Position numbers and translations under genes: made by a program. Below are positions 38,233-63,103 of a stretch of 64,000 nt of DNA, one piece after another; the stretch's first letter is position 1; every line of letters starts with the position of its first letter. The stretch comes from Bryum argenteum (lineage: Eukaryota > Streptophyta > Bryopsida > Bryales > Bryaceae), in contig CM073321.1 of the NCBI GenBank assembly GCA_037043015.1, forward strand, positions 15,373,001-15,437,000. The letters run 5' to 3'. The notes beneath the pieces are model-generated. The model was not told the DNA's origin. It did not search any database and saw nothing but the letters and a program-made list of their open reading frames with translations.

Positions 38233-40070
38233 ATATGATCCTTCTGAAGTAGATGCGTCGTCTTCAGAGTTTGTTGTAAAAGCATTCACTGATGCCTTGA
38301 TGATGTCAATTTGAGTCGTTGGTATAGCTATCTTCAAATTTGAAGTGGATCGCGCGCTCTTGGCTTCCAGGCTGTCATCAAACATGATGTGTTAGACCAT
38401 GTTGGATCCATTGTTCGATCTTTCCGCCACACATTCCCTTTTTTTGTGTCTCATTCGACATACGTGTCCATATTGATATGTTTTCTAGGTGCAGGAGCCT
38501 AATATTGAATTTGGATCATATGTGTATGTCCGGGATCCGGACTTGAATTTGTTAAGGCTCTAGCAAGCCATAATGGCCCTAAGTCATCCTCTACGGGACG
38601 CACTGCAACAAAATATTTTGGAAACGTATCGTGATTTATACGGAATGAAGCACACGGACGATCACGGACACGCCCAGCAAAGGGTGCATCCTCCGCATCC
38701 TCTTCCTGTGAAGTGCCATCTCCATGCATGAAGTCAACCTCGTCAAGGACAATTCTTGAAGCCGGCCAAAATCCATCAACTAAACTTTCACGTGGCTCGA
38801 TCGATGCATTGAGAGCAGCTCGAACACCTTTCCAATAATCTCTTGAAGGATTGTTTTGCCGTCTAAATTCTCCTGAGACATCCTCATCAGCCATTCTTGT
38901 CCAATGTGCAATATACCCATCTAGCCCTTTCTTAACATCATTAAGTGAACTATTATGTTCTAGAATGACACATTTCGGTGAACTAGATGGAACACAAGGT
39001 CTTCCATCTTCAGTCACACTCCACAAGCGAATCTTGTTGCCATATTGTGGTAGCCAATCCTTGTTAGTACACAAATTCTTGTACTCCATTAGACGCCACC
39101 CATTGGAATCCATGCAGAATTTGAATTGCTTTGCCGTGGAATGACCCCATAGAAAGTCATCGCCTGTGCCCTGATAACCATCGCAAAATTCCTTGAAATT
39201 GGGAACCTCCTTAATTATATGGAGAATGACAGGTTGTGTTTCACAGTCCAGAAAGGTTTTTAATAAGCCGTGGGATTGTCGGATAGTCATTTATATTCAA
39301 CTTCGAGCTCCATTGGCCGAACATGACATCTATATCTTCATGCGTGTGTCTAACTATGAGGAAGTTCATGTACCCTTCACGAGAAATTCCTTTGTATATA
39401 AGGAGTGAACAAAAGGCCAAAAGCCATCTATTATTATTATTCCCTGAAACATTATCTAGCTGCAAGACTAGTATATGGGGCAAAGCTTGAGCAGGAACAG
39501 GAGCATCAGGTTGAGGAAGAAGGGAGTCAACGCATGTATCTGAATCTTGCAGAACTGCATTGGATAATGTCGATCGAGTATTCTCATTTGAAAAGAGCTT
39601 ACGAGATGAATTCCTAGGTTGTCCTTTGAGATCACGTAGGAGCTTTGCAAGACATCCAATGGTTGAGTTAGAATTTGCGGGGAAGATACCAAGGCTATAG
39701 TGCGCGAATAAAACATCTCCATGACCATGGGCAGTCATTCCCGTAACCACAACAGGCATTTTTGTGTAAGAATCCGTTGCGTTGGACTTGTGAGAAAAGT
39801 GTGGAGACGCAATCTTGGAGTGATCCATTTTATCATGAATGATGTTCAGCAGCTTTTGAAGAGAATCATCGGAAACGGTCCAGTTGAAATAGTATAGTTC
39901 TCTATGTGCTCGTTGAGAGGTGAGGTGATTTTCAAATTTTTTCGACCACTTTTGCTGTGCATATGATAGAGGTGTGCAAACGCTTTGGAGTTGCTTGTAT
40001 CTATCACACAGGCCACATCGGCAAAAATTAACACCTCGAGCCTTTGGGGCAAATTCTGGAAATGAAGAAC
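38233..40070 (-). pseudogene. DUF7869-like putative transposase, copy 1 (5'-truncated, frameshifted)
   Basis: Reading leftward: a Cys pair in VNFCRCGLCDRYKQLQS, YYFNWTVSDDSLQKLL, the first acidic motif NIIHDKMDHSKIASPHF, GMTAHGHGDVLFAHYSLG, the second motif ILVLQLDNVSGNNNNRWLL, and the third VRHTHEDIDVMFGQWSSKL. This D..D(N)..H-x-E-D-I-D pattern is that of the DUF7869 family, suspected to be an RNase-H-like transposase (family knowledge plus inference). Past a frame change near 39250 come IIKEVPNFKEFCDGYQG and a C-terminal region ending QIQY; a separate last exon (about 38398-38233) has IAIPTTQIDIIKASVNAF. The N-terminal 200 or more residues seen in copy 2 are absent. Aligns throughout with copy 2 at 41592-44468 but is clearly diverged. 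Confidence 0.6.
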
Positions 40071-41591
40071 TGTAAAACGTTTTTCAATGGGTTAAGAGAA
40101 ACCCAAAGAAGGTAGATAGGGGAGTTCTTTGTCGGGAGAGTCTAAGTCGGTCAAAGTTATGCAATTATGGTCACGAATAGAAGAAAAATTAACAATGGTT
40201 TACAAATAATTATAAGTGCTCATTCTTTATTCACTAACACTTTCTTTTAAATCAATGTAAATTTCCGGTTTCAAGTATTCATGTGTTCCATTAAATTATT
40301 CAAAGTTCATTGTCTTCACAATTTATGTACTCCAAACAACCCAAAGCATACACACAAGTATACTTCCAATTTCAATACAAACAATTGGTTTGTAATTTCT
40401 TATTACTCTCAACAATGTTTACAATTTCCAAACTTATTCTCCAATTCATTCAACACTCATGGATCCATTGATTATTCATTAAGTATTATTTATATATTTC
40501 ATAATTTGTTGTTAAAACAACGATTTGTTTTACAAACTCTTTCACAACTCTAAAGTCAATCTTCACAATTCACAGATTCACAGTTTTTTTGAGTGCGGGA
40601 TACACATTTCACTCTTATGTGTTCAAAACACAAATAGGCTTCTTTCTCCTACTAGTATCTCTCAATTTTGTATTCACAACTTTCCATTTCACTCATGACC
40701 GTTCATTTGCTAGCTTTTCACTTAATTTCCCTTCTAATCTTATTTTAGACTTCTATTCGCACTTAAAAAGGAAAATGAAAGGTAATGCAAGCTTTTATCA
40801 CATGAAAAGTCAAAAACATGCTCAAAGTCCAAAAAAATATGTACTACATAGCCCCCTCCTCTATATGTTTGCGTCGCCGCAAATATGAACACATAGAAAA
40901 TAATAGAACCATCTAACGGCGATGACCATTCCTAGGATATCCTCCGGTCCTCCTATCTATGTGTTCCAAGGCTCCAGTAATCGGTGCATCCGTCGCCACG
41001 AGCTAGGGGTTGTCGCGGCGCTGTTGCTGGAGAAAACGGTCTATAGGCCTCATATTCAAGTTGCCAAACTCAATTATCATGGTAAGATGTGCACCAATGA
41101 TAAAATGAGTCAAACACATAGCCTCCAAAAGTCGGTTAAACCCCATATTTGTTAAATTTTGGAACATTTTTATCTCCCAAATTAAAACAAGACAACGGAT
41201 GAAGCAAAAATCAACATTTAGAGGGGTTTCACCATAGGCATATGTACTTTGAATTTACTAATTTCCATTATATTTGGAGATGATATGAGACCTCTTGAAT
41301 CTTAGAAAATATGTTTATCTTAAAATACGTTTCCAACCATACATATATTTGATACGATATATGTCAAGATTAACATACCAACAAGAGATAATTTTCTTTC
41401 AATTGATAATAATGATGGAGTCAACTTAAACAATCTTCTTATACAAAATAAATATATTGAATGTGGATAGTAAAACAAACAAGTATATAATACTCTATAT
41501 ACTAAATATCAAAGTAATATATATGTCAATACCAAGTTTAAGTACTAACACACCTACTTCCATAATAAATACTATATACTAAGAGACTACT
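40071..41591. other. AT-rich gap between the two DUF7869-like genes
   Basis: No supported gene. A short frame at 40922-41155 has no recognisable family. Confidence 0.45.
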
Positions 41592-44468
41592 CTTGAGAAG
41601 ATGAAGCAAGCTCCCGTAAAGAAGCCTTGATGATTTCGACCTGCTTCTTGGGTATTGTAATAATAGCGTCTATACCTTCACTGCTTTCCTCGTCAGAATG
41701 CGTAATTCTTGATTTCCAAGCAGTGAAAATAGCATCTGTAGGTTGCGATGATACATCTACACATTTCTCAACAGTCCAACGAAGCTATCTATTTGTATCT
41801 CAATCTTTGTAATACTTCAGAATTTAATTGGAGCGTAACATTGGATGGAAGAACTGGATGTCGACCGTATTGGGTAGGTCTGGGTTTGAATTTAGATCAG
41901 ACATTGCTCGCCTGAGCCAGAAAGGCCAGCCATCAGTGCCGCATGGACGTAGTGCAACAAAATAATCCTTATAAAGGTCACGTCCAACTCGAAATGAGGG
42001 AGCAGGACGATCACGTCTCTGGCCAACAAAATGATCATCGTCGTCGTACTCTTCGCGTACATTCCCTTCTAAAGTAAACTCATCTTCCATAGCATGTGCA
42101 AGTCGAGTTGACGGCCAAAAACCATGTTGTAACGGTAATGGATCCTTCAAACTTGACGGAATCCCATTTTGCGACGACGCAAGTACATCCATGGATATAC
42201 AAAGAGCATCTTCAACGCCTCTCCAGTAATATGAGAGAGGCTCGTACAATCTCCGCGATTTAATTGACTCACGTAATAATCGTTCCCAATGATCAACAAA
42301 GCCTGAAATCCCTTTCACTACCTCAGGCAAATGGCGCATCTCGTTTGGACGCATAGCATCGGGTTCACCACGTGGCCATAATGATCTGCCTTGAGAATCC
42401 TCCTTCCACAATTTAATACGAGCATGATCACCTCTACGAAGCCATATCTTGTCGTGACAGAAAAATTTGTACTTCATTACGGGGCATCCACTGGGATCCA
42501 TGTAAAACTTGAATTGATGGGCTTTCGTATGCCCCACCAATGCTTTGTCGCCGTCTAACATCCACTCTTCAATGAATTTCTTGAAGTCCGGAACCTCTTG
42601 AACGAGGTGTGGAATAACTGGAAGTTTCTCTATCCTCATAGAAGATTTCATGAGAAGAGGAATGGTAGGATAATCCTCCTTTTGCAACGCCATGCTTCAA
42701 CGCCCAAATAACGCATCTATGTCATCATGAGTGTAACCAATAGCATAAAGTTAACGGATATCTCTCGGAATACTGGTTTTGCTACCAAAAGAGACCAGAG
42801 ACTGAAGACGAATCTATTCTTGTTATCACTCACAGCATTATCCATTTGGACATTCAAAACTAGAGGCAAAGGCCTTGCTGGAACTAGGATGTTAGGAATC
42901 CGGCCTCATGGATCCATACACACCTCTGAACCTCGTAAAAGAGCAGTATACAGTGGATGCAACGAGGGCTCTGTAAAGAGTTGTCTAGATGAGGATTTAG
43001 GTGCAACTTCTAGGTCCCGCAAAAGTTTTGCAAACGAGCCAACCGTTTAATTGGCATCATGTGAATAAACATCTAGTCCATAATGAGTGTAACGCTGATC
43101 TACATGACCATGAGCGAGAATTCCCGTAACTGCAAGAGGTAACTTCATGACCCCGTCTATGTTCTTCACCTTATGAGACAAGGCAGGTGATGTTGTCTTT
43201 CAGTGGTCCATCTTGTCATGCATAATGGTCAAAACATCTTGAGGCGACTCCTTAAACCTAAAGCGGTTGAGGTAGTATAAGTCTCTGTGCGCATATGCAG
43301 AATCTAAGTGCACATTCAACTTCCTCGACCATATAAGAGATGATTGTGTCCCAGGAAGAGTGAGCTTCATCAATGATTGTAACTCATCACACTTAGAGCA
43401 ACGCGCGAAATTGTCCCCCGATCTTTTGGCATAGTATTCTGGATAGCTGAGGCGGCAAATCTTACTAAGGTTTGAAGTTGACACCGGCGGGAGCTCACAC
43501 TCTTCAAGGTGATCATCAAGAAGAAGAATTTGGTCCTTCCACTTAAAACTTGAAGGAAGTACCTTGGCAACGACCTTCTTCCCTCATGGAAGGCTCCGGG
43601 ACTTGTGAGGCATGTGATCGGCATGTCTATCAAGTATTGCCTTTGAGATGGCAGAAGCAACAATCGTATGCCTCCTAAGCTTTCGCAAGCCCGTGTTACC
43701 GTGTAACTGAGCCTTGTGCCCTTCAGCTGGACTCTGGGCGTTGCGATAAAACGTACCGTCGCTCACGCCCATGATTTTCATCCACGCAATTGGACAAACA
43801 TCGATACCCTCTAGAGTGACGACATTTCGCCTTTCAGCATTTCTATGGAATTGCCTATGGACATCGAAATTGACGTGATTCTTGAACTGCACAATTGTCT
43901 TGTCGTACATGTGACACCTGAGAACCTTAATCTTCTCCCTTGAGTATAGTTGAGCACAGTTGTGCCTATAGCAGGTATTACATGCGACCGCATTGATTGA
44001 CTCCGCTGTCATCAGAAACTGTGCTTTGCGCGAAACTGGAGTAGACTCATTCTTTGAAGAATTATCATACGATCGAGTTCAAGATGACTCATGCCGTCGA
44101 CTACGTTCCCGGACCCATCTGTTGTAAACATCTTGCTGTCTATGGTCAAAAAGACTAAGACCGTCTAGAAGGACTTGTTGGATGGGCCACGACTTAAAGT
44201 AGTATATCCAGTCGTTTGGATCCCCGACCGCAACAAACAAAGTTGAAACTTGCACAACAACTCGGGAATCACCGAGTAGGCCATTACAATCAGGTACAGC
44301 GCTAGATCGTAGGTGTTGAAGAAAACCCTCAGCGATTTTGAGTCCTTCGGAATCAAGCATTGCAACAGTCCTCCCTCTCCAGAGCCGTGGAGGAACAACT
44401 TGAGCAGCAAGTAAACCAGGATTCATAGGTGCATCGCCAAAAGTGTCATCGTCTGAAGAGGAATCCAT
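41592..44468 (-). pseudogene. DUF7869-like putative transposase, copy 2 (many stops)
   Basis: ATG at 44468 (MDSSSDDDTFGDAP). N-terminal part LFVAVGDPNDWIYYFKSWPI; then a Cys-rich part ACNTCYRHNCAQLY, GIDVCPIAWMKIMGVSDGTF, and DRHADHMPHKSRSLP; then RCSKCDELQSLMKL, VLTIMHDKMDH, GILAHGHVDQRYTHYGLD, LNVQMDNAVSDNKNRFVFSL, and YTHDDIDALFGR. The C-terminal half (QEVPDFKKFIEEW, RRDRPAPSFRVGRDLYKD) and last exon (IITIPKKQVEIIKASLRELA) follow. In-frame stops lie at 44079, 43584, about 43199, 43048, about 42892, about 42693 and twice near 41790, with a frame change near 42760; most of them are TGA. So it is dead, although the three acidic motifs are still readable. The palindrome array starts 80 bp upstream. 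Confidence 0.65.
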
Positions 44469-44548
44469 CCTGAAATATATTTTCACAAGGCTAAAATTTA
44501 TTTGAACAAAAGCATGGTATGAGAAACGTATGAGAAACGAACACATGC

Positions 44549-45077
44549 AGTTTAGCTCGACTCGAGCTAAACTCACTAAGAGAATACTATCTATAGTGTA
44601 GCTCGACTCGAGCTAAACTGCATTATGTATTTGATCAATTAGTTTAGCTCGCCTCGAGCTACACTATCTAACCTACACCGCCTTGCAGTAAAGCTGGACT
44701 CGAGCAGAAGTGGGAATACAGCCGCGCTTTAGATTAGCTCAACACCAGCTAAACAGATTCACCAGATACATATTAGAGTTTAGCTCGACTCGAGCTAAAC
44801 TGTCCGACAAGTTGCCTACAGCAGTTTAGCTCGACTCGAGCTAAACTGCATATATATGCATGCAGTACAGTTTAGGTCGGGTTGACGTAAACCGCAGAAA
44901 TATGCATGTTCTACAGTTTAGCTCGAATCGAGCTAAACTACATAAACATACATGCCTTACAGTTTAGCTCGACTCGAGCTAAACTGCAGAAATTTGCATG
45001 CCATACAGTTTAGCTCGGCTCGAGCTAAACTGCAGAAATATGCACGGCATACAGTTTAGCTCGACTCGAGCTAAACT
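44549..45077. repeat. 46-bp-period array, twelve units with a 25-nt palindrome
   Basis: Twelve units starting at 44549, 44595, 44641, 44687, 44731, 44777, 44823, 44869, 44915, 44961, 45007 and 45053; all pitches are 46 bp except two (44 then 46). Each unit begins with a 25-nt palindrome: arm AGTTTAGCTCGA, centre C, arm TCGAGCTAAACT. Five units are perfect (44549, 44777, 44823, 44961, 45053), others carry one to several changes, and 44687, 44731 and 44869 are degenerate. Spacers are 21 nt. Spacers 7-11 are relatives of GCAGAAATATGCATG, but spacers 1-6 show no similarity to one another. The array lies just upstream of the DUF7869-like gene copy 2. Confidence 0.95.
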
Positions 45078-45627
45078 GCATGGCAGAATACAAGACTAGT
45101 CCCGAAAATTCCGGCGGTTTTCACGGGATTTGAATAGAATTCAATTTTCCGTTACAACCAGCGCTCTCCCATTCTATAGTCACACGCAGGAATTAAAATA
45201 TACTCTTGTACCAACGTAATCATCAAATTAAAAGAATATGCCAACAACAACGACTCCGAATGCACAAAGGTGAAGTACAAGCCATTAGAATATAACCATT
45301 GAACAGAAATTATCAACTACTACTACTCAAGATAACGAGAAAACTATAAAGAATAATGAAACAAACAATGCGAGAAGCTGTGCAAAGCAAACTGAACGAC
45401 AAACAATTATGCATAAACGCAATCAAGAAACACGTACGCGAAGGTAGAGGGCGAGATGAAGGAAGCACGGAGAACTCGAATACGTCGATGGAATTCAGCA
45501 CATTGAGAGATTGACAAAAGAATCATTTCGTCCTGGATTTCGAAGGTCATTGCGTAGCGCAATGCTGTTTTCGCGCTATTCCAAAAATAGGAAATGGGAG
45601 AGAATTGACGTTCGGATAATTGAAAAT

Positions 45628-45772
45628 TGGCGGGAACCGAAGTCTCGACAAATGAAAATGGACGCGAACTGAAGTGTCAACAGTGAATAATGGGCGGAAA
45701 CAAAAGTGCCGACATTTGATAATTGGCGGGATTGGGGTTATAGGGTTGAGGGTTTAGGGTTTAGGATTTAGG
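45628..45772. promoter_or_regulatory. 32-bp repeats with E2F-like sites next to a telobox tract
   Basis: Three and a half imperfect units of about 32 bp, beginning TGGCGGGAACCGAAGT, TGGACGCGAACTGAAGT, TGGGCGGAAACAAAAGT and TGGCGGGATT. The GGCGGGA core resembles plant E2F sites (TTTSSCGS) but the T-stretch is short of consensus. Directly to the right come GGGTTTAGGGTTTAGG and related units, i.e. the AAACCCTA telobox in reverse. Both motif types are found in S-phase and growth-linked plant promoters. The region lies between the palindrome array and the AT-rich block. Regulatory role is inference. Confidence 0.35.
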
Positions 45773-48600
45773 ATTACTGATTACAGGTGTGTGATAATTG
45801 TTATTGGTCAAAAAAATGTTAATCGTTATACACCTAATGTGAGGTACACTATGTTAGCAAACACTCAATGACACAATAAAATTTTAGTAAAATTACTTGG
45901 AAGCAATACATTGGATACGACTTTCAATTTCATATTTTTGTAAATCGAGTATCCTTAATCTCAATCCTTTCTTTCTAAATAAAGTTCCTATACAATAAAT
46001 TTGATGCAATATTTACCTTAAGGTGAAGTCTTATTAAGTATTAAGCTATTATCTTATCTATAAGTTTAATACTACAAATTTTTTTGTGTGTATGCACTTG
46101 CTAACAATTCTTAATTGAATGTTTAGTATTAAACACTTCAAATTAATTCTATCATATGCAATATCTCGTTAAAAATTGTACGAGTAAACATAATTTTTAT
46201 TAAATTCTGTTTACTTATTTGTATAAACGTAATATATTTGATAATTATATATAATTTAATATAATAAATGATATTTATTACATATTATATTGTATACTAT
46301 TTATCTATAAATGAAAAATATATCTTTGAAATTGTAAATTCATACAATGTAAATATAATCTTAGTATATTATTTGGGGTATCAAATTGATTCAGCTATAA
46401 ACAGTACTGATGAAATCAAATATTTTAACCGTAAATTTTAAATGAAATCATCAAAGTATACCACAATGAAAAATTTATACAATTTGATAAGTAAATTTGT
46501 AAATCTTGTTAAATACACTTTGGAATATTTAATAGAAGAAGTTTTAATGTACATAAAATTTTATATTTAAACTTAATGGCATTGTATATATGCTCAATGA
46601 TATATATGTCATTTAATTGTTTTTAACATAAAGCTTACCAAAATAAGATTACTTTTGAACGTTTTAATTTGATTTGTAGATGTTGAACCTTACAATTGGA
46701 TTTTGTATTGAAATGTTCAAAATCAATTGCAAATATGGACATCTTTTCGTTTGAAATATGCATTTATTAAATACAATCAATACATTCATTGATCTTTAAT
46801 GTTGAATTTCTATTCTGCAAATTTCAGTAACTTTCAAATTATATATTAACTATCGTCTCAAAACACATTTCAATGACTTTAAGCATAGTGTATAATGTAA
46901 GAACTATTAACATAAGCTTTGATCGTCCAAACGCGATCACTATCTAGGATTTTGTACGATGTCAAACAAAACAAATGATTGTGAAGTATGCAGAAGAGCT
47001 GAATATTTTTTTATCGAATGAATAGATTTTGTGTTTGAGTTCAACTGTTTTTTTTTTATTTTCTATATACACCGTCATGTACATCTCTACAAGTGATTGT
47101 AAACATTGCAAGCAGAGTAAAGCCTAATGTTGGGGTTGGTTATGAACTTCCAATGTACATTTGTATTGCGTTTATTCAAAATTATGAGCACTGTGACTGT
47201 TAGGAAACAAACAAAAACAATCTTTGTTGAGCCATTTACAATTTCTTCCTTTCAACACATATTTTACGTGATTCACATTATCGAGATTCTCGAATATAAG
47301 TATAAATATTATTATTACTTTTGAACAATCTTTGAGAGTGATGAACTTCATCGACGTATTTATGTTTTAAACGTGACTTTTCCTTAATAATTTATTCTAC
47401 TACATTATAAATATATTTAAACGCATAATAAAGAACAATAATGTTTTTAAATGAAAATGCAATAAGAATAAATGATCGTTGTACAATGTAAACAACAATG
47501 TGAGCAATAATGTTCATAAATACATGCTTTCTTATTTTTAGAATGTAACCATAGTCATTATACTATCTAAAATATGTCTTTTAAAATTTATATAGCTTGT
47601 AAAATTCTACACAATAGGCAATATTTATAGCTTATAATTTAAGAATTTCATCGAAACCCTCTATGCAATAACATGTTTTTATGGATTCACAGCACTTAAT
47701 ATCATTAACCTATATTAGACATCAAAAAAATTCGAATTTGCACTTCTGCGAACTTTCACTTTTTTACTTATTTAATTATATTTATGAATCTCTTATTTTC
47801 AAATTTTGAATTCTAAAATAATATTCAAATTAATAATTCAATTATTGACTTTTTTTTGTCAAATACTCTATTTATAGAAGTATCAAAAAATTAAAAAATA
47901 TCATATTTCATAATAATCTATATACAAACTAATATATTCTACCATAACTCTATTCAATATCAGCTTATTCGTAAAGAACAAGTGTATTACATATGTATTA
48001 ATAATCTATTCCTAACCTTCTTTCAAATAATCTATTATATAATAATGTATTTATTAATGTCATATACCTAAATAACATATTTATAAAATACTATATTTTT
48101 TGGATTCCCTATTTATTAGTCTTCTGATGTCAATAAAAATATCAATTGAATTTTCCAAATAATCTATTCATTAACCTACTATTTTCAAATACTATATTCA
48201 TAATATCACGTATTGATTGGTGTATTAGTTCACTAAATTATATATATATATATATATATAGTTATATTAATATATTTAGTAAATAGTCTAGTCAATAATC
48301 CCTTATTTCAATGTGTATTCAATAATTTGTTTATTAACAGTCATCTTTGAAAATACTATATTTATAAGATACAGTATCTTGTGCTGATCAATTTATTATT
48401 TGTATATTTATTTATTTATTTACATTAACATATTTATGAAAAGTCTATAAAATATCCACTGATTCACAAATTAAATGTGTATTAAATAATCTCTTCATTA
48501 ATACTTATATTATCCAAACAAATGTACAAATCGCAGTTTGATTGCGAGCTGCTTTGCTCTGAGATCTCCCCCTTGCTTAGTTTGCCAGGTTTTATTGAGC
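45773..48600. other. 2.8-kb very AT-rich block
   Basis: No coding frame on either strand. Long A/T stretches, a (TA)n tract at 48239-48261, and dozens of ATTTATTA-like words. It separates the minus-strand DUF7869-like gene with its array from the plus-strand ParB-like gene. Confidence 0.6.
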
Positions 48601-49397
48601 AGCTCCAGTGAAGAAGTCGGCGGAGGCGAAGAAGAAGAAGAGCATGCTCATTCCCGAAGAGGATGCTTTTACGGCTTTGAGCGAAGCGATTACTGCCATT
48701 CCAAAGAACGTTAATACCGTGGAGGAAATCGACTTCGAGAACGTGAACCTCATCTATCACAAATTCTTCACAGACTGTCAGGATGCTTTCGTCTTTCCTA
48801 AACCTGACACGAAGATGGAGATCGACACGATGAGGATGTTCGAGTCCCCCAACAATGGACAATCCGGGCATTCGAAAAGAAGGGCAAGACGGACTTGATG
48901 AATTTCCTCATCAATATGCCTGACAGATCGCAGAAGCAAACGCTCTGCGTAATGCCCAAGTTAGACGTGAAGCCAAACGGCCTGGAGGATATGCAGGCAT
49001 GCGACTTCTGGATAATCAACGGCCAACACAATGTTGCCGCCTCGAAGCAGATGCTTGAGTCCAAAGTCCCGGAAACAATTCGTAAGGACTTTCGGGTGTG
49101 GTCAGCTTTTGTGGTTTGGACAGAGGATGAAACCAAGCTCCGCAAGATTTTGGCGTTTTACAACAGAGTGAACCGTTTCACTCCGTTTAAGCTGACATGG
49201 GCATCGAACATCCTTGCCGCCCCGGACCGTATGGCAGAACTATGGGCGCCCCCCAAACAGACATGCAGCAGCTGGGGTGGCGGACAAACGAGTGCAAACA
49301 AAGCGAATAATGTTACAATTCGCAAATTTTGACGTAAGTATTACCTCAAGTCCCATAGCAACTCTACCTTCTTTAATTACGAACAACTTCCCGTGGC

Positions 49398-49731
49398 ACT
49401 TTAGCTCGACTCGAGCTAAACTGATGTCAGTTTAGCTCGAGTCGTGCTAAAATGTCATTGCAGTTTCATCATGTTCTACATTTAAATCTAAATTGCTTCT
49501 AACCATGTAGCGCGCACTGGTGTTATATTTATCGTGCGATTTGTTTATCAATTCTAGTTTAACTCGACTCGAGCTAAACTGATAACAGTTTAGCTCGAGT
49601 CGAGATAAACTGATAACAGTTTAGCTCGAGTCGAGATAAACTGTCGCTGCTGCTTATTGAACTCCAACACTTCTTATACTCAACTGCTTCTGAATTTCGC
49701 ATGCGCACTTTAGCTCGACTTGAGCTAAAGT
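49398..49731. repeat. six palindrome copies inside an intron of the ParB-like gene
   Basis: Copies at 49398, 49429, 49556, 49587, 49618 and 49707. Three of them (49556, 49587, 49618) have a 31-bp pitch with spacer GATAAC. Some are in reverse orientation (centre GAGTCG). The copy at 49707 has ACTTTAGCTC on the left and GAGCTAAAGT on the right, a paired change that keeps the arms complementary. Confidence 0.9.
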
Positions 49732-51145
49732 GATCACTCTCTTATACTCCGAAATCTTACACTACTTCTGTGGTGTTGCAGAAATTTGTTGAATCTATTC
49801 GACAAAGATTCTTCATGATCGATGTTGCCAAGGCCCAAGTAGAGGCGAAGAACAAGGTCTTGTCCCTCACGGATGAGCTAAAGATCATCACCTTTCCTGA
49901 TGATCTCTGGGACCTATGAGCAGAGTTAATTGGAAGTGTCGCCCAAGGGACCCTCATCGACCCCTACTCCATGAGGATGCTGTGTGACAAAACAGGGTTC
50001 AAACCAGACAACGACCAAACCCTATCCAGGGAATTTTTTAAGAACCTCGGTAACCTTTCATAGTCGGATCACAGGAAAATCTGTTGACATATGCTGAATA
50101 GGTCAGGTCCGTCTTGGAAACTGGAATATCCAAAGGTTACCCTGAAACAACCAGCAACCCTACTTAGAGATTGCTACTCCGTCAAGGAGTACGTTGAACG
50201 GTTGAAGCTGAAGGCGACCGCCCAACTTCAGATCCACAAGATCCGACCCGCACTCGGGATCTTCAAGAATAACGAGTTCGACGTGGTTGCGTGGAAGAAA
50301 TTTAAAAAGAATTACCACGTCACCAAGGCTTCGAAGCGCGCACTCTTGGATTGGGGTATCCTTGATAAATATTACGAGGATCAGAGGCAAACCCAGGACA
50401 GGAATACCAGTTGCGAGGATCTCTCTCTCTACGCAAAGAGGTTCTTCGAGGTGTTTCTGGAAAAGTGCAAGAAGTTTATAGGCCATGTTGGTAGTGTTAT
50501 ATTCCGTTCCTTCCATCGCAAAACACCACAAAGGCTTGGAGATTGGCCTGAGAACTCATGGCCGGAGGTTGCACCTGAGATGAACATTGGAATCATCGAT
50601 TTCAGACTGGTTCTGGGTAGTGGTAGTATTAGCACCTCCTTGCCACACCACCCATTCTTCGAAATGTTCATGGCGATCTTATCGTCCCACAACAAGCGAG
50701 CTCTGACAGATGTACCCTGCTGGTTATTTATTTGCGGGGATGACAGTGATTACGGGCAAGTTGAGGCGTTTGCGACAAATTTTGCCTACTTCCCAGGGTC
50801 GAACTATAAGCTAATTCCATCATTGTACTACCCATCCCCGCACGAATGGATCGCTCGATTCAATGCAAAAGCAAAGCAAGCCTCGGAGCCCGTGCATCTT
50901 CTCTTCATGATTAGGGAAAATGTGAAACTCGCGGAATTTCCAGCGACCGTGTATCGCGCCCCAAAACACGCGCTTTACGAGAAGCCGCGAAAGTACAACG
51001 AGTCTCGGTATCACATGTACCCGATCATGTTGAGGATGGATTTTTATTTGTAGGTCCTCCGGCTTTTCTGCCATGAGCAGGAGAATATTTTTCTCGTCTA
51101 CGCCGGCGGAAAAGCAGTCTGCGCAAGCGTGATAAGCTTCCCAAC

Positions 51146-51344
51146 AGTTTAGCTCAAGTCGAGCTAAACTGTCACACTCAGTTTGTAATCGTGAGATTTC
51201 CTACAGTTTAGCTCGACTCGAGCTAAACTGTCACTCAGTTTGTTATTGTAGGATGTCCTACGGTTTAGCTCGACTCGAGCTAAACTGTCATACCTAAATA
51301 GACATCATGTGCCCCTCACAGTTTAGCTCGACTCGAGCTAAACT
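51146..51344. repeat. four palindrome copies inside the second intron of the ParB-like gene
   Basis: Copies at 51146, 51205, 51262 and 51320, pitch 57-59 bp; two are perfect (51205, 51320). A single further copy (AGTTTTGCTCGA left arm) lies at 52375-52399 in the 3' flank. Confidence 0.9.
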
Positions 51345-52263
51345 GTCATTTTTATTTTGCAAACATGTCCGCTCAAACTTCAGAGCAATTTCGTTTTCTA
51401 AGTTGCTGTGTTTATTGTAGATGCTGTCCCTCGATGCCTACTCCATATTCGACGCTGAAGATAAAGAGGACATCGACCACGCGTACAATGAAGGGCTTAC
51501 TCTTGATCCTACTGACTTCTCCGTGAATGGATATTTTTTCGACAAAGATGAGTTTCCAGAGGTCGAGGGCATGCTCTTGAAGGGCAAGCGCAAAGCTGTT
51601 GCGTCCTTGGATGCCCTAGACGATGAGGCGGACGTCCCCGACCGGGAGGATTCTGGGTCAAGCGGAAGACTACATCACGGTGAAGGCATCACTTACAGCC
51701 TTGGTTCCGGAGGAGATGACTCCGCTCTAGTCGAAGAGGAAGACATAAAGTTGGACACGACCCCTCGGACACCGCAAGAGTCGCGTATTGCTCCTGGGCG
51801 AGGAGGCGGCATGGTGGGTAAAAAGGGGAAACGTAATCCCTTGTCGAAGGACTCACCCTCAAGTAGGTTCAAGGCTGAGGAGAGTGCCGAATTCGCAGCA
51901 CTACAGCGGAAGATCGAGGAGGAGACGGCACACCGGAGGAAATTAGAAGAGATCCTTGCGCAGCAGCAAATTGTGCAGAAGGAACGCGATAAGATGGACC
52001 TGGAACGCCATGCCGAGATGATGGAGATGATGCGGGTTTTATCTTCCGGCAAGCCATTAACTTCAGTTCAAACAATGGCAATCACTACTGCTCAGAGTGG
52101 TGATGCAAGTGCTCCACATGCTGGTCCTACTACTTCGCAACCACTCACGTCCTCGCCACCTCCAACTACCGAGCCTTCTGCGTTTACGCCTTCCTCGCCT
52201 ACGCCTGAATTACAACTTGTCGGTGCCGCAGAAGAAGAATCTACAGGTCCTCCTTCAACTTAG

Positions 52264-52934
52264 ATCAAAGGTATAGTATTTGAGCTGTAAATGCCGGAAA
52301 GCACATGTACATGTGAAATTTTGTATCAAACTCAGACATTTTTCTGTAATTAATACAGGCCTATACTATTTTGCAGTTTTGCTCGACTCGAGCTAAACTG
52401 TTGCCCTTTTTATATATGCTTTATGTTGGCTCCCATATTCTATTTCCTCCATCCTATTGTTTCCTGATTCCACGAACTTGTATTGCGCTGCCAGATGTTA
52501 ATTTGGATGACGAAGCAATCGATGTTCCAGTCATGGATGATGTTACGCTTGAATGTTATCGCCATGAGCGGGTTCCACCGGTGGAGGGCACACTTAAAAT
52601 GCATGATGTCTCACATACTGAGAATAGATGTCTCACATACTGAGAACTGAGAATTGTTGCTGTCCGTGATGAGATAGATTGCACTCAGCAGTCACTCGGG
52701 TCAATGGGCGTCAAAGTTGACTTAGAAGAGAGCAATTATGATAATCAGGTATATTCAATTCCACACACTCTGCTCTCACCCATCGCCTTGTTGCGATGTA
52801 TTACATAATTCTGACCTTGAATTCATCGCACCAATGACGAAAAATCCCCGGTAATTTTGTCGTGGTGCGCCGTTTTCATTTCAGGGAAACGACGCGTCGA
52901 TCAATAATCTAAGTTCTAGAGAAGGCATAGGTCA
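52264..52934. other. 3' flank of the ParB-like gene
   Basis: Holds the single palindrome at 52375-52399 and a 22-bp tandem duplication (TGTCTCACATACTGAGAA, 52608-52645). A frame at 52440-52640 has no recognised domain. Confidence 0.45.
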
Positions 52935-53317
52935 AGTTCCAAGGAAAACCTCCGGTACTTGGTTAAATGTTGTTATCGACCTCAACTGTGCAATCGCACG
53001 CCATTTTGGGAAGCTAAAGGATACAGAAACCGTGACTTCCGTGTTTACTCGGCCACGTTGCCACACTACAAGGAGAATAGTATCCTAATTGACGAAATTT
53101 TGACAAAAACCTGCCAATTGTTCCGTCAATTAGGAGACCCTGATTCGGTCACTCAATTGACAGAATTCTATCATTCATTTGTCAATTTGGACGAAGTTCT
53201 ACAATGCAAAAAAATTAAAAATTCGGAAATTTTGAGGAAACATTTCTCTGCCCGGGCACGCCGGGCAGCAGCGTTGGCACAACGTAAAATAGCGCGGGCC
53301 CCATCAAGGGGGTAGCG
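52935..53317 (+). pseudogene. FCP1/NIF phosphatase-like fragment, copy A
   Basis: One frame gives GTWLNVVIDLNCAIARHF, where VIDLN resembles the first motif of HAD/FCP1-type phosphatases (normally DLDGT or DLNG). A second frame gives RVYSATLPHYKENSILIDEI, then LFRQLGDPDSVTQLTEFYHS, which lines up with the last part of copy B (NVLLLPSW..DSILLDEVLP). Two frames within one short piece mean it is rearranged. The C-terminus is Arg/Ala-rich and runs up to the SINE-like sequence. Alternative: unrelated ORF. Confidence is low. Confidence 0.25.
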
Positions 53318-53339
53318 AGGGCCCTACCGCGGGAAATGC

Positions 53340-53433
53340 GAGCCCTACCGGTGGAGGCTCACAAGTGGTATGTTAGGGGATTCGATCCCTTGACCTCACG
53401 GGTATAGTCCAAGTGACTAGCCAACTCACCTAC
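53340..53433 (-). repeat. tRNA-derived SINE-like head
   Basis: On the minus strand a TAGGTGAGTTGG (53432-53421) fits an RNA polymerase III box A (TRGYNNAGYTGG), and GGATCGAATCC (53388-53378) fits box B (GGTTCGANNCC) with one change, 33 bp apart as in tRNA-derived promoters. The body does not fold as a clean tRNA end to end and no tail was identified, so this is a SINE head or a tRNA-like relic. Confidence 0.5.
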
Positions 53434-53454
53434 TATCTAATTTCATGTCCGAAG

Positions 53455-54130
53455 ATACGTTTTTTTTTATATATATATGCTTTAAGTACAAGTACAGCAG
53501 ACTTTGAATATTTTTCACGATGTAAAAAAAAAAAAATTTCAAAATTTTTTTTTGAAATATTCTATGCAGGTATTTTTTTATATGTATAAAAAATTTCAAT
53601 TTTTTTTGAAATTTTTTTTTTTTATGCTAGGGCCTTTTTTTACTACCGAGTAGACTTTGAATATTTTTCACGATGTAAAAAAACTTTTTTTTTTCAAAAT
53701 TTTTTTTTGCACTATTTCATGCAGGTATTTTTCCATATGAAAACCAACCCAAGTGATTTTGTCCAAAACGGAGTCCGGATGAAGAAGTTATAGTTCTTCA
53801 AAGTTTCTGCCCTTCATGCAAAATGTCGTATTTTGGCATTTTGCATCAACTTTGAACGTTATGATCTCACAAATGGAGAAGATCCAACGGTTGAAAATTT
53901 CAGCGGTAGCTCAAAAACAAGTAAATTACAAGATCCTACGGTTAAAGTCTACAAAAAGTTTTAGCAATTCCATGCTTGTCGTAAATAAAAAAAATTGACA
54001 AGAAGTTGACTAGAATTTGACAAGAAGTTGACAAAAACATTAATAATGTCCAAAGTGACAGAGTTGGGCTGCGGGATGCTGACTTCGTCATTTCGGACAT
54101 TTTTTTGTCAACTATTTGTCATCTCGGGCC
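53455..54130. other. homopolymer-rich tandem repeat region
   Basis: Two copies of a roughly 130-140-bp unit with GACTTTGAATATTTTTCACG, long A and T runs, and ATGCAGGTATTTTT (about 53500-53590 and 53647-53735), then non-coding AT-rich sequence. Confidence 0.6.
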
Positions 54131-54139
54131 CCATTTCCT

Positions 54140-55758
54140 TGTAGTGCCAACAGAGGTGGGGAAGAAGCTTGTATGGGTGAGGCGCAAGTGTAAGGACTTC
54201 CTCTCACAGGTGGCATCGTTTGCTATCATCACGGTTTGGAGTTAGATGATGACAACAACCACAGAAGCCATTTGTGATTTTCTCATTGGTCCTATAAACT
54301 CTATAAGGCCCCTACATAATCTTGGTTAAGAAGACTATGACATGATTCTCTTGAAATTTGGTGGAAGCCGACCTTTGTTCATGAAGGAACCGGGAACTCA
54401 GAAGTCTATCTTCCTTAAGACCTTGTCAGCTCATCTCTTCAAAAGCTTCGATGGTTTTTATACGGAGGCTAATACGCTGATCATGGATGATAATCCGGTT
54501 AAGCACGTGCTTAATCAGCGGAAAAATGTTCTTTTACTACCATCTTGGTCTCACAAGGACAATAGGGCATACGAGGATTCTATTTTGTTAGATGAGGTTT
54601 TGCCGTACCTGTTAGATCTCCATGAGTTTGACGGTCCCCTTAGCAAGTTTTGGTCATCGTTTCAGTTTGGACGTGCCATGTTATATGATGATCGTGCATC
54701 AATAGATCTGTATAATGATATACAAAAGGCATTAATAGAATGAAAAATTATTTTATATCCTATTGTTGGGTAATTTTTGACCCTTTGGTTTAATTTGAAT
54801 TCGTATCTTAGAATGTGAAGCTCCTGTAGTAGCTTTGTAGGACTTTTCATATGTTTGTGAATTTTCATTTCGTGAAGATGAAGACAATGTGATCTTTAGT
54901 TTTCTTCAACACAAGCCTCTCTTGCATGAACTTTATGTTCTCTGGATAATTGATGATTTGTTTGGAATATTGTTGAAATAGATTACGCAAGGTGATTGTC
55001 GTGCTTCTGTGGATTCTCTGATGAATGATGCAGATTTCGGGCCTTCGTTTTGGAGTAGAGGACGATTATTGCAGACTGCTGAAACGGCTCAATGGATTTT
55101 TCAACAATGGTGGTAGAAGATGGAGTAGTTAATAGCCCTGTCACTAAGCCATCACCTCCGAAAGTGATGCAATCCGCTTCCCCAGTGTGTCCTCCAACGG
55201 TAAATCATAATGGTTCTCCTCTTCAAATAACATGTACACCTACGAAGCGTATGTTGTACGACATTGGCGTGAATATTTCTGAAGAAGTTTTTGTAAAGGT
55301 TTGTTTCTTCATCCCTTGAGAAGTTACTCCAGAGTGTCCAGTTTATACTTTAAGTTAAGTGTTTACAAGAACGAATTAGTATTTGTAGATCTACTACTAT
55401 ACACTCTAATACGTTAGACAATTCTTAAACATTGGACTCATATGCTACCTATTGCTCGTATGTATCTTTTAGCTCCTTCACTTATAAGAAATGCCGTTGT
55501 TTTTTTTTGTTCAGGATCGTGTTTTGGAGAGTCCAAAACCATGTTCTTCGAAGTCTACGGAATAGGGAGCAATCAAACCTTCGTGAGATAACCGCCGCCA
55601 CTCGCTACCTAAGTCAAGCATTGAGGACCGGCGTCGCAAAAGATTGCAACGCCTTCTTGATAGTCCATTGATGCAAGACAATGATCCTAGCTGGACACGT
55701 CGACGTCAACGAGCATTCATCCAATCTCGTATTGTTGCTTATGGTGGAACTCCGTAGT
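54140..55758 (+). pseudogene. FCP1/NIF phosphatase-like gene, copy B
   Basis: First block: GKKLVWVRRKCKDFLSQVA then FAIITVWS and an in-frame TAG before MMTTTTEAICDFL, as in the middle of FCP1-type phosphatase domains (RP..FL......I..W......A). Next FGGSRPLFMKEPGTQKS and SFDGFYTEANTLIMDDNPVK, where MDDNP is the late HAD acidic motif, then NVLLLPSWSHKDNRAYEDS and LLDEVLPYLLDLHEFD. The first HAD motif (DxDxT-like) is not in this copy. A later Pro/Ser-rich exon (55092-55303, donor GTAAAG) and a last basic piece (DRRRKRLQRLLDSPLMQ to VAYGGTP, stop 55757) follow, with a TAG and a frame change between them. It lies downstream of the ParB-like gene on the same strand and may be a captured gene of the same mobile unit (inference). 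Confidence 0.5.
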
Positions 55759-56350
55759 AGTTACATCTATTAGCTACAAGAGTAATTATGTACAGATTTG
55801 ATAGTCATCACTCTTGTATGACATATTTTGTGAATCATGATTGATATTCACAAGCGATTAAACGGAATATTCTTTTATTCCCATCCTCTTTCTATGGTTT
55901 GTTCACAGCGATGTCTCTATTTGCATATATTTATATCATGTTTGATGCATGATCTGGTACTTTATGCTTAACATTGTACGATATTTTAGATGATTCTCTC
56001 CTCTTAAATCTCCCAAAGTCCAGCATATTTCCCAATATAACGAATATGGGGTTGTTAATTCGAGTACACTAGTACTGGAGTTTGAGAGTAAGCCAAAACT
56101 CTGGGTGGTCAACCGTTTGAGAAATAATTCCATCATTACGTACATCTACATCAATCCAGACTCTGAAATCAAGACACCACTTTGCAAGAATGTTGCAAAA
56201 AATGGCAGCTCTATAGCAAACCGGATCCTGGCAATGTCGGTGTCGGATTCAAAAGTCCCGGTATGTACTAAAACACTCTTGAGGAGTCCTCTTGAATCCT
56301 GGTATGATTGGCCAATTATACTCGATGGAGTCAATGGTGGCCGTCGGATT
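55759..56350. other. no gene recognised
   Basis: Spacer between the FCP1-like pseudogene (+) and the gag-like gene (-). Nothing supported. Confidence 0.45.
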
Positions 56351-61112: not shown

Positions 61113-62190
61113 TCAAGTTTGATATAACTTAAGTCGATTTCCGTTATATCGCGTTGCGTGGATGTTGCCTTGTAAATCTTGCAAGTCCATAGAATCATTT
61201 GCATAATTTTTATAAATTTTGTATAGACCAAACCACCGCATTATGAATTTCCCTAGAAATTTTTAAAAACGACTATTATATAATAATACCAAATCTCCAA
61301 CTTTGAGTTCTTTGGGTTTAAGTTTGCTATCGTAATAGCTTTTGCGCCTATTTTGGATTGATGCCATATATAAATAAGCTTGGGCTCTTTTTTTGTCCAA
61401 TTGTTCTAGCTCATAACACTTTGTTTTAAAGATTTGACATCGTCCAATCTATTGTCAATTGCTGTACGTACTGATTGAATTTTGAATTCAATCAGCAAAA
61501 TGGCCTCTTGGCCATAAACAAGTTGAAATGGAGTATGTTTTGTGGTTACTTTGTATGCCGTGCGATAAGCCCATAGGGCATCAAAAACCCTTTCATCCCA
61601 ATCCATATTGGATCCTTGAACGGTTTTAGTAATTATTTTAAACAAAATACCATTGGTCTTCTCGGTTTGTCCATTGGCTCTTGGATGATATAGTGTTGAC
61701 TTCCTATATTTGATGAAATAAATATTTAATAAATTCTCAATGATCATGTTCACAAAATGGGTGCCTCCATCACTTACAAGTTCTTTGGGGCATCCGAAGC
61801 GAATAATTATATTTTCATTAGCAGCGGTTTCGGCATCATCTGTATTCGTTGGCATGGCTTCTGCCCACTTTGTTACATACTCCGTAGCAATCAATATATA
61901 TCGATATCTTCCTTGTCTACTTGGAGGTTTGATTGGTCCTACAAAGTCAATTCCCCATTTTTTGAAGGGTATTTGTGCCAAGATTGGATGTAAAGGCATA
62001 GCCAAAGTAGTTGTTGGTTTACCAACTCATTGGCATGGATCACATTTCTTCACGTATTTTGCTGCATCTTTCAATGAAGTTGGCCACCAATAGCCAACAT
62101 TTAAGGCTTTTGTGGCCGTTACAAAATGCCCTCCACAAATTGAATCATAGCATGCTTCCAAGATTGATGAAACTTCACTTGGATTTATGC
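61113..62190 (-). pseudogene. Ty3/gypsy integrase
   Basis: Zinc-binding tail KKCDPCQ followed by an in-frame TGA at about 62028 and VGKPTTTLAMPL, then the core: KKWGIDFVGPIKPPSRQGR (first Asp), PKELVSDGGTHFVN (second Asp), YHPRANGQTEKTNG (Glu), DALWAYRTAYKVTTKHTPFQ and VYGQEAILL. All three catalytic acids are present. Near 61410 a one-base frame change moves the frame to ELEQLDKKRAQAYLYMA and LKPKELKVGDLVLLYNSRF, then a TAA, then KFLGKFIMRWFGLYKIYK and the end RYNGNRLKLYQT. The C-terminal region shows the usual GKF....GPY-like block and no chromodomain. Family is Ty3/gypsy; inactive as read. Confidence 0.8.
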
Positions 62191-62191
62191 A

Positions 62192-62779
62192 TCACCTTAA
62201 AATGCCATCTTTTCCTTTCTTGTACAACACTTCTCCTATCATAGTATAAGGAGCCGCTTTGTAAATTGATTTGTCTCTTTCTTTAGAAGTATATTCTATT
62301 GGAATACTTCCATTTTGCAAATAATGAATAATCTCGGCATATTCAAAAGGTATCACGTCTACTTCGAAGAGTTGTGCATCTGGTAAGTCGTCGTTTATTG
62401 GTTCCGGATTTACTTCATTGGACATCCGCGATAAATGATCAGCATTTAAGTGGCATTTTCCGGGTTGTACTTGTATGACAAAATTGAATTCTTGTAGTAG
62501 AAGTACCCATCTTGCAATTCGACCACTAAGTTGTGGTTTATTTATCATATATTTAAGTGCGTCGTGATCAACATAGAAGGTGAATTTGTAGCCAAGTAGG
62601 TAATGTCTATACTTTTGTACGGAAAATATCATTCCTAATGCTTCTTTTTCGGTGACCGAGTAATTTCGTTCGGCGGCATTTAATTGCCGGCTTGCAAAAT
62701 ATATTGGATGGTTTCTTCCTTTGTCGTCTTTTTGACTTAATATGCTTCCAATAGCCATATTTGAAGCATCCACATACAC
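62192..62779 (-). pseudogene. Ty3/gypsy RNase H
   Basis: Open frame with YVDASNMAIGSILSQKDDKG, HPIYFASRQLNAAERNY, VTEKEALGMIFSVQKYRHYL, LGYKFTFYVDHDALKYMIN and HLNADHLSRMS: the RNase H-like fold used by gypsy elements (Asp, Glu, Asp, Asp residues all visible). It ends at about EVLYKKGKDGILR, just before the integrase zinc region, where a TGA breaks the polyprotein. This stretch itself is undisturbed. Confidence 0.85.
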
Positions 62780-63103
62780 TTCAAAGTCCTTGTCCCAATT
62801 TGGGGAGACTAAGATTGGTGCAATTATTAATTTTTGTTTTAAAGTATTAAACGCCTTGACACAAGTAGGTGTCTATACCGCAGTAGTTTCACTTTTCTTC
62901 AAAAGATGCGTCAAAGGTAACGCAATGTCGGCATACTTGTAAATATATCTTCTATAGTAGCCAACATAGCCTAGAAAACCTTTGACTTCGGAGACGGTGT
63001 TCGGTGGTGGTAGATTAGCAATTATTGCTACTTTATCCGGGTCGGTTGCCATGCCTTCCTTGGATACAATATGGCCAAGTAATTTTCCAAATAGAACTAT
63101 GAA

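Follow-up and report, generated by a model that had tools for sequence, protein, structure and literature searches.

What keeps one long palindrome recurring through the noncoding DNA of a single mobile element, and what reads it? The question was raised by a 64-kb stretch of the Bryum argenteum genome (assembly GCA_037043015.1, contig CM073321.1, positions 15,373,001 to 15,437,000; hereafter the window), which carries a giant transposon with a DUF7869 transposase-like gene and a gene labelled 'ParB-like'. A scan of the window at up to 7 mismatches yielded 23 sites of the 25-mer AGTTTAGCTCGANTCGAGCTAAACT, ranging from 44549 to 52399. Twelve registers of the 25-mer, with 6 mismatches in two and 5 in one, make up array 1 (44549-45077), which keeps a 46-bp register and adjoins the DUF7869 start codon on the upstream side. 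Six palindromes lie in intron 1 of the ParB-like gene (at 49398, 49429, 49556, 49587, 49618, and 49707, thus spanning 49398-49731) and four in intron 2 (at 51146, 51205, 51262, and 51320, spanning 51146-51344), and a single palindrome (52375-52399) stands between the ParB-like gene and a third gene. None of the 20 window sites with at most 4 mismatches overlapped a coding match. The scan agrees with a preliminary description of this DNA, which had placed the 25-mer in the array, six times in the first intron, four times in the second and once in the 3' flank, with none in exons. Further palindromes in the window, judged by eye, were singletons only.

The search was extended to the whole genome (258.8 Mb in 25 contigs; the window lies on contig C1, which is 44.1 Mb long). 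There were 1,256 exact 27-mers and 3,805 25-mers with at most one mismatch, compared to none for the reversed control in either search; chance as a source of the recurrence is therefore excluded. Among the 100 genome sites listed, 93 fell into seven clusters located within 10 kb of a ParB-like match.

All palindromes in the window fall inside one DNA transposon with terminal inverted repeats (TIRs), delimited at 41139-56053 (14,915 bp) by comparison of copies and alignment of ends. The left TIR (AACCCCATATTTGTTAAATT..., 41139-41161, plus strand) and the right TIR (AACCCCATATTCGTTATATTGGG in minus-strand reading, 56031-56053) are flanked by the target site duplication GTTA (41135-41138 on the left, 56054-56057 on the right). 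Two full-length copies, D (18,560 bp, contig C1) and Q (17,640 bp, contig C8), share these ends: at either end, the window copy, D, and Q all start AACCCC(A/G)TATT(C/T)GTTA(T/A)ATT, the repeats are approximately 20 bp, and the 4-bp duplications are perfect in all three copies for which both ends were fetched (GTTA, AGAA, and AACA, respectively). Both sides were fetched for nine other copies, and eight of these (B, D, E, F, G, H, Q, and R) have the DUF7869 and ParB-like genes linked, with their order kept. Together with the matching TIRs and duplications in three copies, this bears out the proposal that both genes belong, in divergent orientation, to a single element. The same proposal had spoken of a two-gene unit and pointed to 40.9-41.6 and 52.4-53.3 kb as places to look for terminal repeats. 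Both genes are indeed present, the count was too low, as a NIF-like gene makes a third, and the left end was nearly located (41139) while the right end lies further out, at 56053.

The sites recur in other copies at corresponding places. At up to 4 mismatches, copy D holds 38 sites and copy Q 23, distributed over array 1 upstream of the DUF7869 start, an array 2 upstream of the ParB-like gene, the two introns, and one downstream spot. A diverged copy (the C6 copy, covered by two fetched stretches that are 3 kb apart) carries palindromes in the same five places: array 1 has 15 and, in locus L035, array 2 has 20, intron 1 has 7, intron 2 has 5, and the downstream spot has 1. The single downstream palindrome occupies the same spot in the window, D, Q, and the C6 copy. 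None of the 413 sites in 24 sources (the window plus 23 loci) overlapped a coding match; exons in this count are tblastn matches, which cover 81 kb, and locus L009, with sites and without a coding match, was left out.

Conservation is limited to the palindrome. Each arm position matched the consensus in 89-99% of 386 sites (at most 4 mismatches), and beyond about ±16 conservation was close to background. For the 336 sites of the main lineage the core averaged 1.74 bits per position vs. 0.10 bits at 16-30 from the centre, and in a second, E-like lineage (83 sites) 1.78 bits vs. 0.12 in the flank, the core values being inflated by the picking of sites for similarity. These two lineages are far apart: their ParB-like exon is 56% identical, the proportion of synonymous differences (pS) is 0.76 and thus saturated, and the synonymous divergence (dS) of DUF7869 is about 1.2. 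Both nevertheless have an identical palindrome core in matching places with unrelated spacers. Because lineages with saturated synonymous sites share the core and its places while the spacers differ, and because none of the 413 sites is in coding DNA, the palindromic site itself is, on this comparison of copies, under selection. The earlier suggestion that the site rather than the primary sequence is maintained is borne out in this form; the accompanying expectation that each family would have its own palindrome failed, as the two lineages examined share one.

Could the copies be alike without any function, simply by homogenisation of the arrays through slippage, unequal exchange, or conversion? 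Tandem units of 46 bp do expand and contract, and array spacing is mostly 46 bp in the main lineage vs. mostly 54-60 bp, plus some longer spacings, in the E-like lineage. Homogenisation would, however, have to fix the cores while leaving near-random spacers within the same arrays, and isolated single sites such as the one in the 3' flank are also kept. We regard this explanation as scarcely credible.

The centre of the site is informative as to the substrate. In the main lineage the centre base was C or G in 331 of 336 sites, with flanking C...G. In the E-like lineage it was free (24 C, 23 T, 19 G, and 17 A among 83 sites), and the flank was unconserved. The A and T beside the centre were kept at 97-99% in the 386 sites, in which the centres were strand-symmetric (181 C, 179 G). 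Symmetric centres and the retained A and T fit, as expected, duplex DNA that would be read by a symmetric protein. Sites acting instead as RNA, with hairpins in 5' leaders or introns that steer splicing or small-RNA pathways, were also considered, and the perfect arms could fold as transcript hairpins. Duplex DNA is nonetheless the likelier substrate, because the positions next to the centre (±1), hard to pair in an RNA loop, are those kept at 97-99%. Moreover, complementary double changes were seen in only 13 of 4,032 pairs and single-arm changes in 270, and the site occurs in several transcriptional contexts. A role as RNA thus appears very improbable.

The double changes deserve separate mention, since the palindrome at 49707 had been cited as evidence for maintenance: a G-to-C change in its left arm is matched by C-to-G in the right arm. 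The paired change is present (-11 G→C, +11 C→G), but the site also has C→T at +2 without a partner, and at the neighbouring site 49398 only the left arm carries its change. In the main lineage (336 sites) there were 13 complementary double changes vs. 5.0 expected, with 10 of the 13 at position 11, an excess that possibly goes back to a small number of inherited events; the E-like lineage (83 sites) had 2 vs. 1.2 expected. The compensatory change at ±11 is real, yet it is weak evidence for maintenance of the site.

We hypothesized that a protein encoded by the element recognises the palindromes and thereby controls the element or relieves its silencing, and assign this reading a probability of roughly one half. 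Under this hypothesis the product of the ParB-like gene, which has a putative methyltransferase fold and would be the most likely candidate, binds the 25-bp palindrome as a dimer. Its binding sites would be the palindromes that closely precede the start codons of the transposase-like and binder genes, and those in the binder introns. The bound protein would then prevent host silencing from closing promoters and gene bodies, or modulate transcription, with an effect limited to DNA that carries the palindrome code. Binding by an own protein at promoters and introns is proposed because the layout mirrors that of VANDAL21 of Arabidopsis, where VANC21 binds tandemly repeated motifs located upstream of VANA and within the introns of VANC and VANB (PMC5735166), and where binding of VANC21 leads to loss of silencing marks (PMC5735166, PMC10398659), as far as the available excerpts of these reports go. 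Noncoding motif arrays in accessory-gene introns and upstream of the transposase gene are common to both systems. The excerpts also indicate differences: the VANC21 motif is a 9-mer in one orientation, compared to a 25-bp palindrome here, and VANC carries DUF1985/DUF287, neither of which was returned by Pfam scans of the element pieces. The B. argenteum element appears to use a VANC-like strategy independently, in another transposon type, its site being long, palindromic, and frozen rather than short and changeable. Sola-like and with a 4-bp duplication, the element also differs in type from the VANDALs, which are Mutator-type elements.

A host protein, either a repressor or an architectural factor, might instead bind the sites and be exploited by the element or silence it. 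The 49 kb of window sequence beyond the element contained no sites at up to 7 mismatches, and none were found in a 28-kb stretch (P) that carries just a 110-bp element end; no wider test outside elements was made. A parasite would furthermore be expected to lose, not retain, a site for a host repressor, and we consider a host binder quite improbable. The palindromes might alternatively serve transposition itself (synapsis, enhancer function, or copy counting). CACTA/EnSpm elements have subterminal TnpA binding motifs, and like them the present element, which has moved, contains numerous short motifs per copy, here of a dimer type. In D and Q, however, the regions next to the ends are free of sites, over about 3.4 kb on the left and about 2.4 kb on the right, and the sites cluster at start codons and in introns, so that the motifs are internal rather than subterminal. 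The element is also unlike CACTA/EnSpm in its ends (AACCCC) and its 4-bp instead of 3-bp duplication. A transposition role therefore seems unlikely.

The candidate gene for the proposed own binder lies on the plus strand. Exon 1 is preserved as a remnant at 48597-49333, recognised by tblastn and alignment to copies, and includes the motif IINGQHNVAAS. It is followed by a predicted intron 1 (49334-49780, GTAAGT...GCAG), exon 2 (49781-51130, with stops in the window copy), a predicted intron 2 (51131-51420, with a donor unlike that of other copies), and exon 3 (51421-52263), which is charged, of low complexity, and has its stop codon. The label 'ParB-like' rests on an IINGQHSVAAS-type motif, which we take to be of ParB/DGQHR type. 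On a weak model, the second half of exon 2 resembles beta-class adenine methyltransferases, and its end looks like such an enzyme in permuted order. In a Foldseek search with a weak model of the methyltransferase-like half (mean predicted local distance difference test, pLDDT, 41.5; stop-free exon of copy C), the best 50 of 142 matches were all METTL3/METTL14 or MTA1, with a best E of 3.6e-3 and none at or below 0.001 among these 50. Sequence searches added nothing: hhalign to 29 YhdJ-type methyltransferase sequences gave no match with an alignment of very low diversity (effective number of sequences, Neff, 1.5), PF01555 had no match in the element pieces scanned, a PDB sequence search returned nothing relevant, and a phage tblastn with one exon piece found no match. 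Genome-wide, the N6_N4 methyltransferase family PF01555 has two weak matches, at C4:20498341-20498493 (26.8 bits) and C7:9878472-9878624 (26.7), neither at the element places listed.

The catalytic motif IV of beta-class N6/N4 methyltransferases is (D/N/S)PP(Y/F/W), for example DPPY or DPPW. In the present gene motif IV reads IIDFRL in every copy whose frame reaches there, in both lineages, and because of this DFRL, catalysis by the methyltransferase-like half is doubtful. A more specific and clearly less probable form of the own-binder hypothesis is a complete self-recognition code: a protein of ParB-methyltransferase fold that has lost catalysis would read a fixed 25-bp GANTC-centred palindrome seeded only in element promoters and introns. 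The palindrome would be a nuclear counterpart of parS, protecting or activating every copy that bears the code, and would have remained constant as identity between the proteins fell by half.

Adenine methylases of the CcrM type act at GANTC, and the methyltransferase-like half might instead methylate the adenine (or a cytosine) at the GANTC centre and thereby label the element as self. The core ...CTCGANTCGAG..., in which the centre base is free in the E-like lineage, would suit such an enzyme, as would the METTL3/METTL14/MTA1 matches. The authors of a study of Ectocarpus likewise propose that ParB-methyltransferase proteins bind and modify their own transposon (PMC12477816, available excerpt). 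Against self-marking stand the DFRL motif in place of DPPY/DPPW, the lack of a PF01555 match in the pieces scanned and of an hhalign match, the pLDDT of just 41.5, and the main-lineage centre, which is almost exclusively C or G; a GA/TC centre is moreover expected by chance 1 time in 16. Active self-marking is accordingly rated as doubtful.

A number of observations weigh against the hypothesis of an own, ParB-like binder that keeps the element active. No ParB family was found by Pfam or NCBIfam scans of window and copy pieces (limits E 1-10), a PDB sequence-profile search gave no ParB support, hhalign to relatives of SopB gave a probability of 0.1%, and the AlphaFold model of exon 1 was unusable (mean pLDDT 31.7), mean confidence being low for the methyltransferase-like model as well. 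The ParB-like identity given in the preliminary description is thus without support from profiles or a usable fold. The binder could instead be DUF7869, the NIF-like protein, or a host factor. Sites have decayed from C to T where these lie in CG and CHG contexts, which suggests that many copies are, or formerly were, methylated. VANC targets vary among families according to the excerpts available, whereas the palindrome here is constant across 55% protein identity. Array periods are not wholly distinct between lineages, as runs of 46-47-bp spacing persist in array 1 of the E-like lineage. Linkage is imperfect: copy A has lost its DUF7869 side, and an eighth listed cluster of palindromes (C1 3.6155-3.6196 Mb, 7 of the 100 sites) has no ParB-like match among the matches listed. 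The P locus (L029-L031, near 4961659 on C1) consists of the right end alone (110 bp, 94% identical), without other similarity to D and without sites, and appears to be a truncated or miniature derivative of the element. None of the copies examined has all three genes intact: DUF7869 is interrupted by stops in D, the ParB-like exons are frameshifted in Q, and ParB-like exon 2 has one frameshift in the C6 copy. Finally, exon 3 of the ParB-like gene evolves fast, with a ratio of nonsynonymous to synonymous divergence (dN/dS) of 0.47 (window vs. D). In favour of the hypothesis, pairwise dN/dS was 0.14-0.16 for ParB-like exon 1 and 0.09-0.25 for DUF7869; it was 0.24-0.34 for the NIF-like gene. On the strength of these values (0.09-0.47), purifying selection is judged to have acted on all element genes, most weakly on exon 3.

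To what kind of transposon does this system belong? The Sola superfamily has a 4-bp target site duplication (PMC10741241, available excerpt), and the element shares with it this duplication, in 3 of 3 copies, and terminal inverted repeats. With its DUF7869 transposase-like gene, the element is best read, by features, as a giant transposon of a putatively Sola-like kind. The closest described parallel is Sola1-1_Ec32 of Ectocarpus, which is 21.5 kb long and is reported to encode a 1104-aa accessory protein with ParB-like and DNA methyltransferase domains, the latter predicted to make N4-methylcytosine (4mC) or N6-methyladenine (6mA) (PMC12477816, excerpt). By that description both are giant transposons with an accessory gene opposite in strand to the transposase. 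In agreement with this reported accessory gene, ParB-methyltransferase is the most likely family for the B. argenteum gene, whose membership is putative. The two differ in that the present element has palindrome arrays and a NIF-like gene, which the excerpt does not mention for Ectocarpus, and in that motif IV here is DFRL whereas the Ectocarpus enzyme is a predicted 4mC/6mA maker. Among the open-licence papers listed we found no report of such palindrome arrays in Sola-like or ParB-methyltransferase transposons, and no target site named for ParB-methyltransferase transposon proteins, the available text of PMC12477816 included.

A further parallel exists in bacteria. Bacterial ParB-parS systems combine a ParB protein with clustered palindromic sites and a partner ATPase, and function in segregation. 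Here too a putative ParB-like protein is encoded beside clustered palindromes. The moss system differs in that no relation was detectable with SopB of plasmid F as the test, no partner ATPase was seen, and its role would be in chromatin or transcription rather than segregation. The palindrome offers a precise candidate target for ParB-methyltransferase transposon proteins, available for comparison in thousands of natural copies and across two lineages, and it turns the way in which a transposon may keep its own copies active into a directly testable question.

The DUF7869 transposase-like gene (41587-44468, minus strand; PF25273) is split into several frames in the window copy. PF25273 E-values were 2.9e-44 in D, 5.6e-42 in Q, and 2.9e-4 for the best window piece. 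The acidic motifs HDKMDHSK, Q(M/L)DN, and HTH(D/E)DID are conserved in two families; a DUF7869 profile had no match in the PDB, and we found no mention of DUF7869 in the open-licence literature. A second, distinct DUF7869 gene lies just outside the element at 38499-40083 (PF25273 2.3e-31; 39-50% identical), without nearby palindromes. Membership of the KDZ group was considered and rejected: the sole match, CxC2 in one window piece, had E 0.037 and was below the cut-off, and there was none in the D and Q pieces scanned, which did not include the matching D segment.

The third gene, approximately 52495-55900 on the plus strand and interrupted, resembles HAD phosphatases of the NIF/dullard type (PF03031). 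Its PF03031 match had an E-value of 8e-15 in D and 0.0032, below the cut-off, in the window piece; TIGR02251 reached 1.9e-7, below its own cut-off. The usual active-site start of NIF-type phosphatases is DxDx(T/V), and the gene reads DLNG at that place in the window, D, Q, and C6 copies.

Compared to copy I, which has 4,807 bp between the flanking matches, the window copy has an internal deletion of about 4.8 kb with its junction at 48524-48596; the deleted part corresponds to array 2 and the first half of ParB-like exon 1 in D and Q. A nested, non-autonomous CACTA-type insertion of 1.08 kb (53064-54146; CACTACAAGGA ends, 3-bp duplication CCA) lies inside the third gene and is absent from the copies whose match spans this interval. 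Owing to the deletion and the insertion, the window copy is evidently not autonomous.

Copies are unevenly distributed in the genome. A 34-bp form of the right end had 66 matches at up to one mismatch; the window's own end, more diverged, is not among these, and some of the 66 are not full elements, because P has the 110-bp end alone. Contig C1 makes up 17% of the genome yet holds 47 of these 66 right ends. Of 100 main-lineage exon matches 82 are on C1, as are 23 of the 35 copies of the E-like lineage with at least 68% identity. The end and exon counts are lower bounds, since only the best candidates were scored, and the exon-match and E-like tallies are hand counts, with one 57% match on C10 with 14 stops left out of the latter. 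Confinement of the element to C1, suggested by 37 of the 40 matches scored at first, was rejected as absolute; the strong enrichment stays. Stop-free matches were more frequent off C1 (13 of 18) than on it (18 of 82; Fisher p = 8e-5), and with a longer query 8 of 12 main-lineage rows off C1 were stop-free, frameshifts being ignored in these tallies. As C1 holds most of the decayed copies, it may be a non-recombining sex chromosome.

ParB-like lineages with 68-77% identity to the C6 copy are found at C1:35359870, 39014963, and 1575444 and appear intermediate; palindromes occur 9 kb from 1575444. TTTAGGG telomere-like repeats are present within element copies, with 17 units in L016:8311-8434 and a degenerate run at window positions 45744-45771; the L016 array and the C→T decay in CG and CHG contexts are suggestive of a plant genome. 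Outside the element, open reading frames judged by eye at 61406-62872 encode Gypsy-like retrotransposon integrase and reverse transcriptase fragments.

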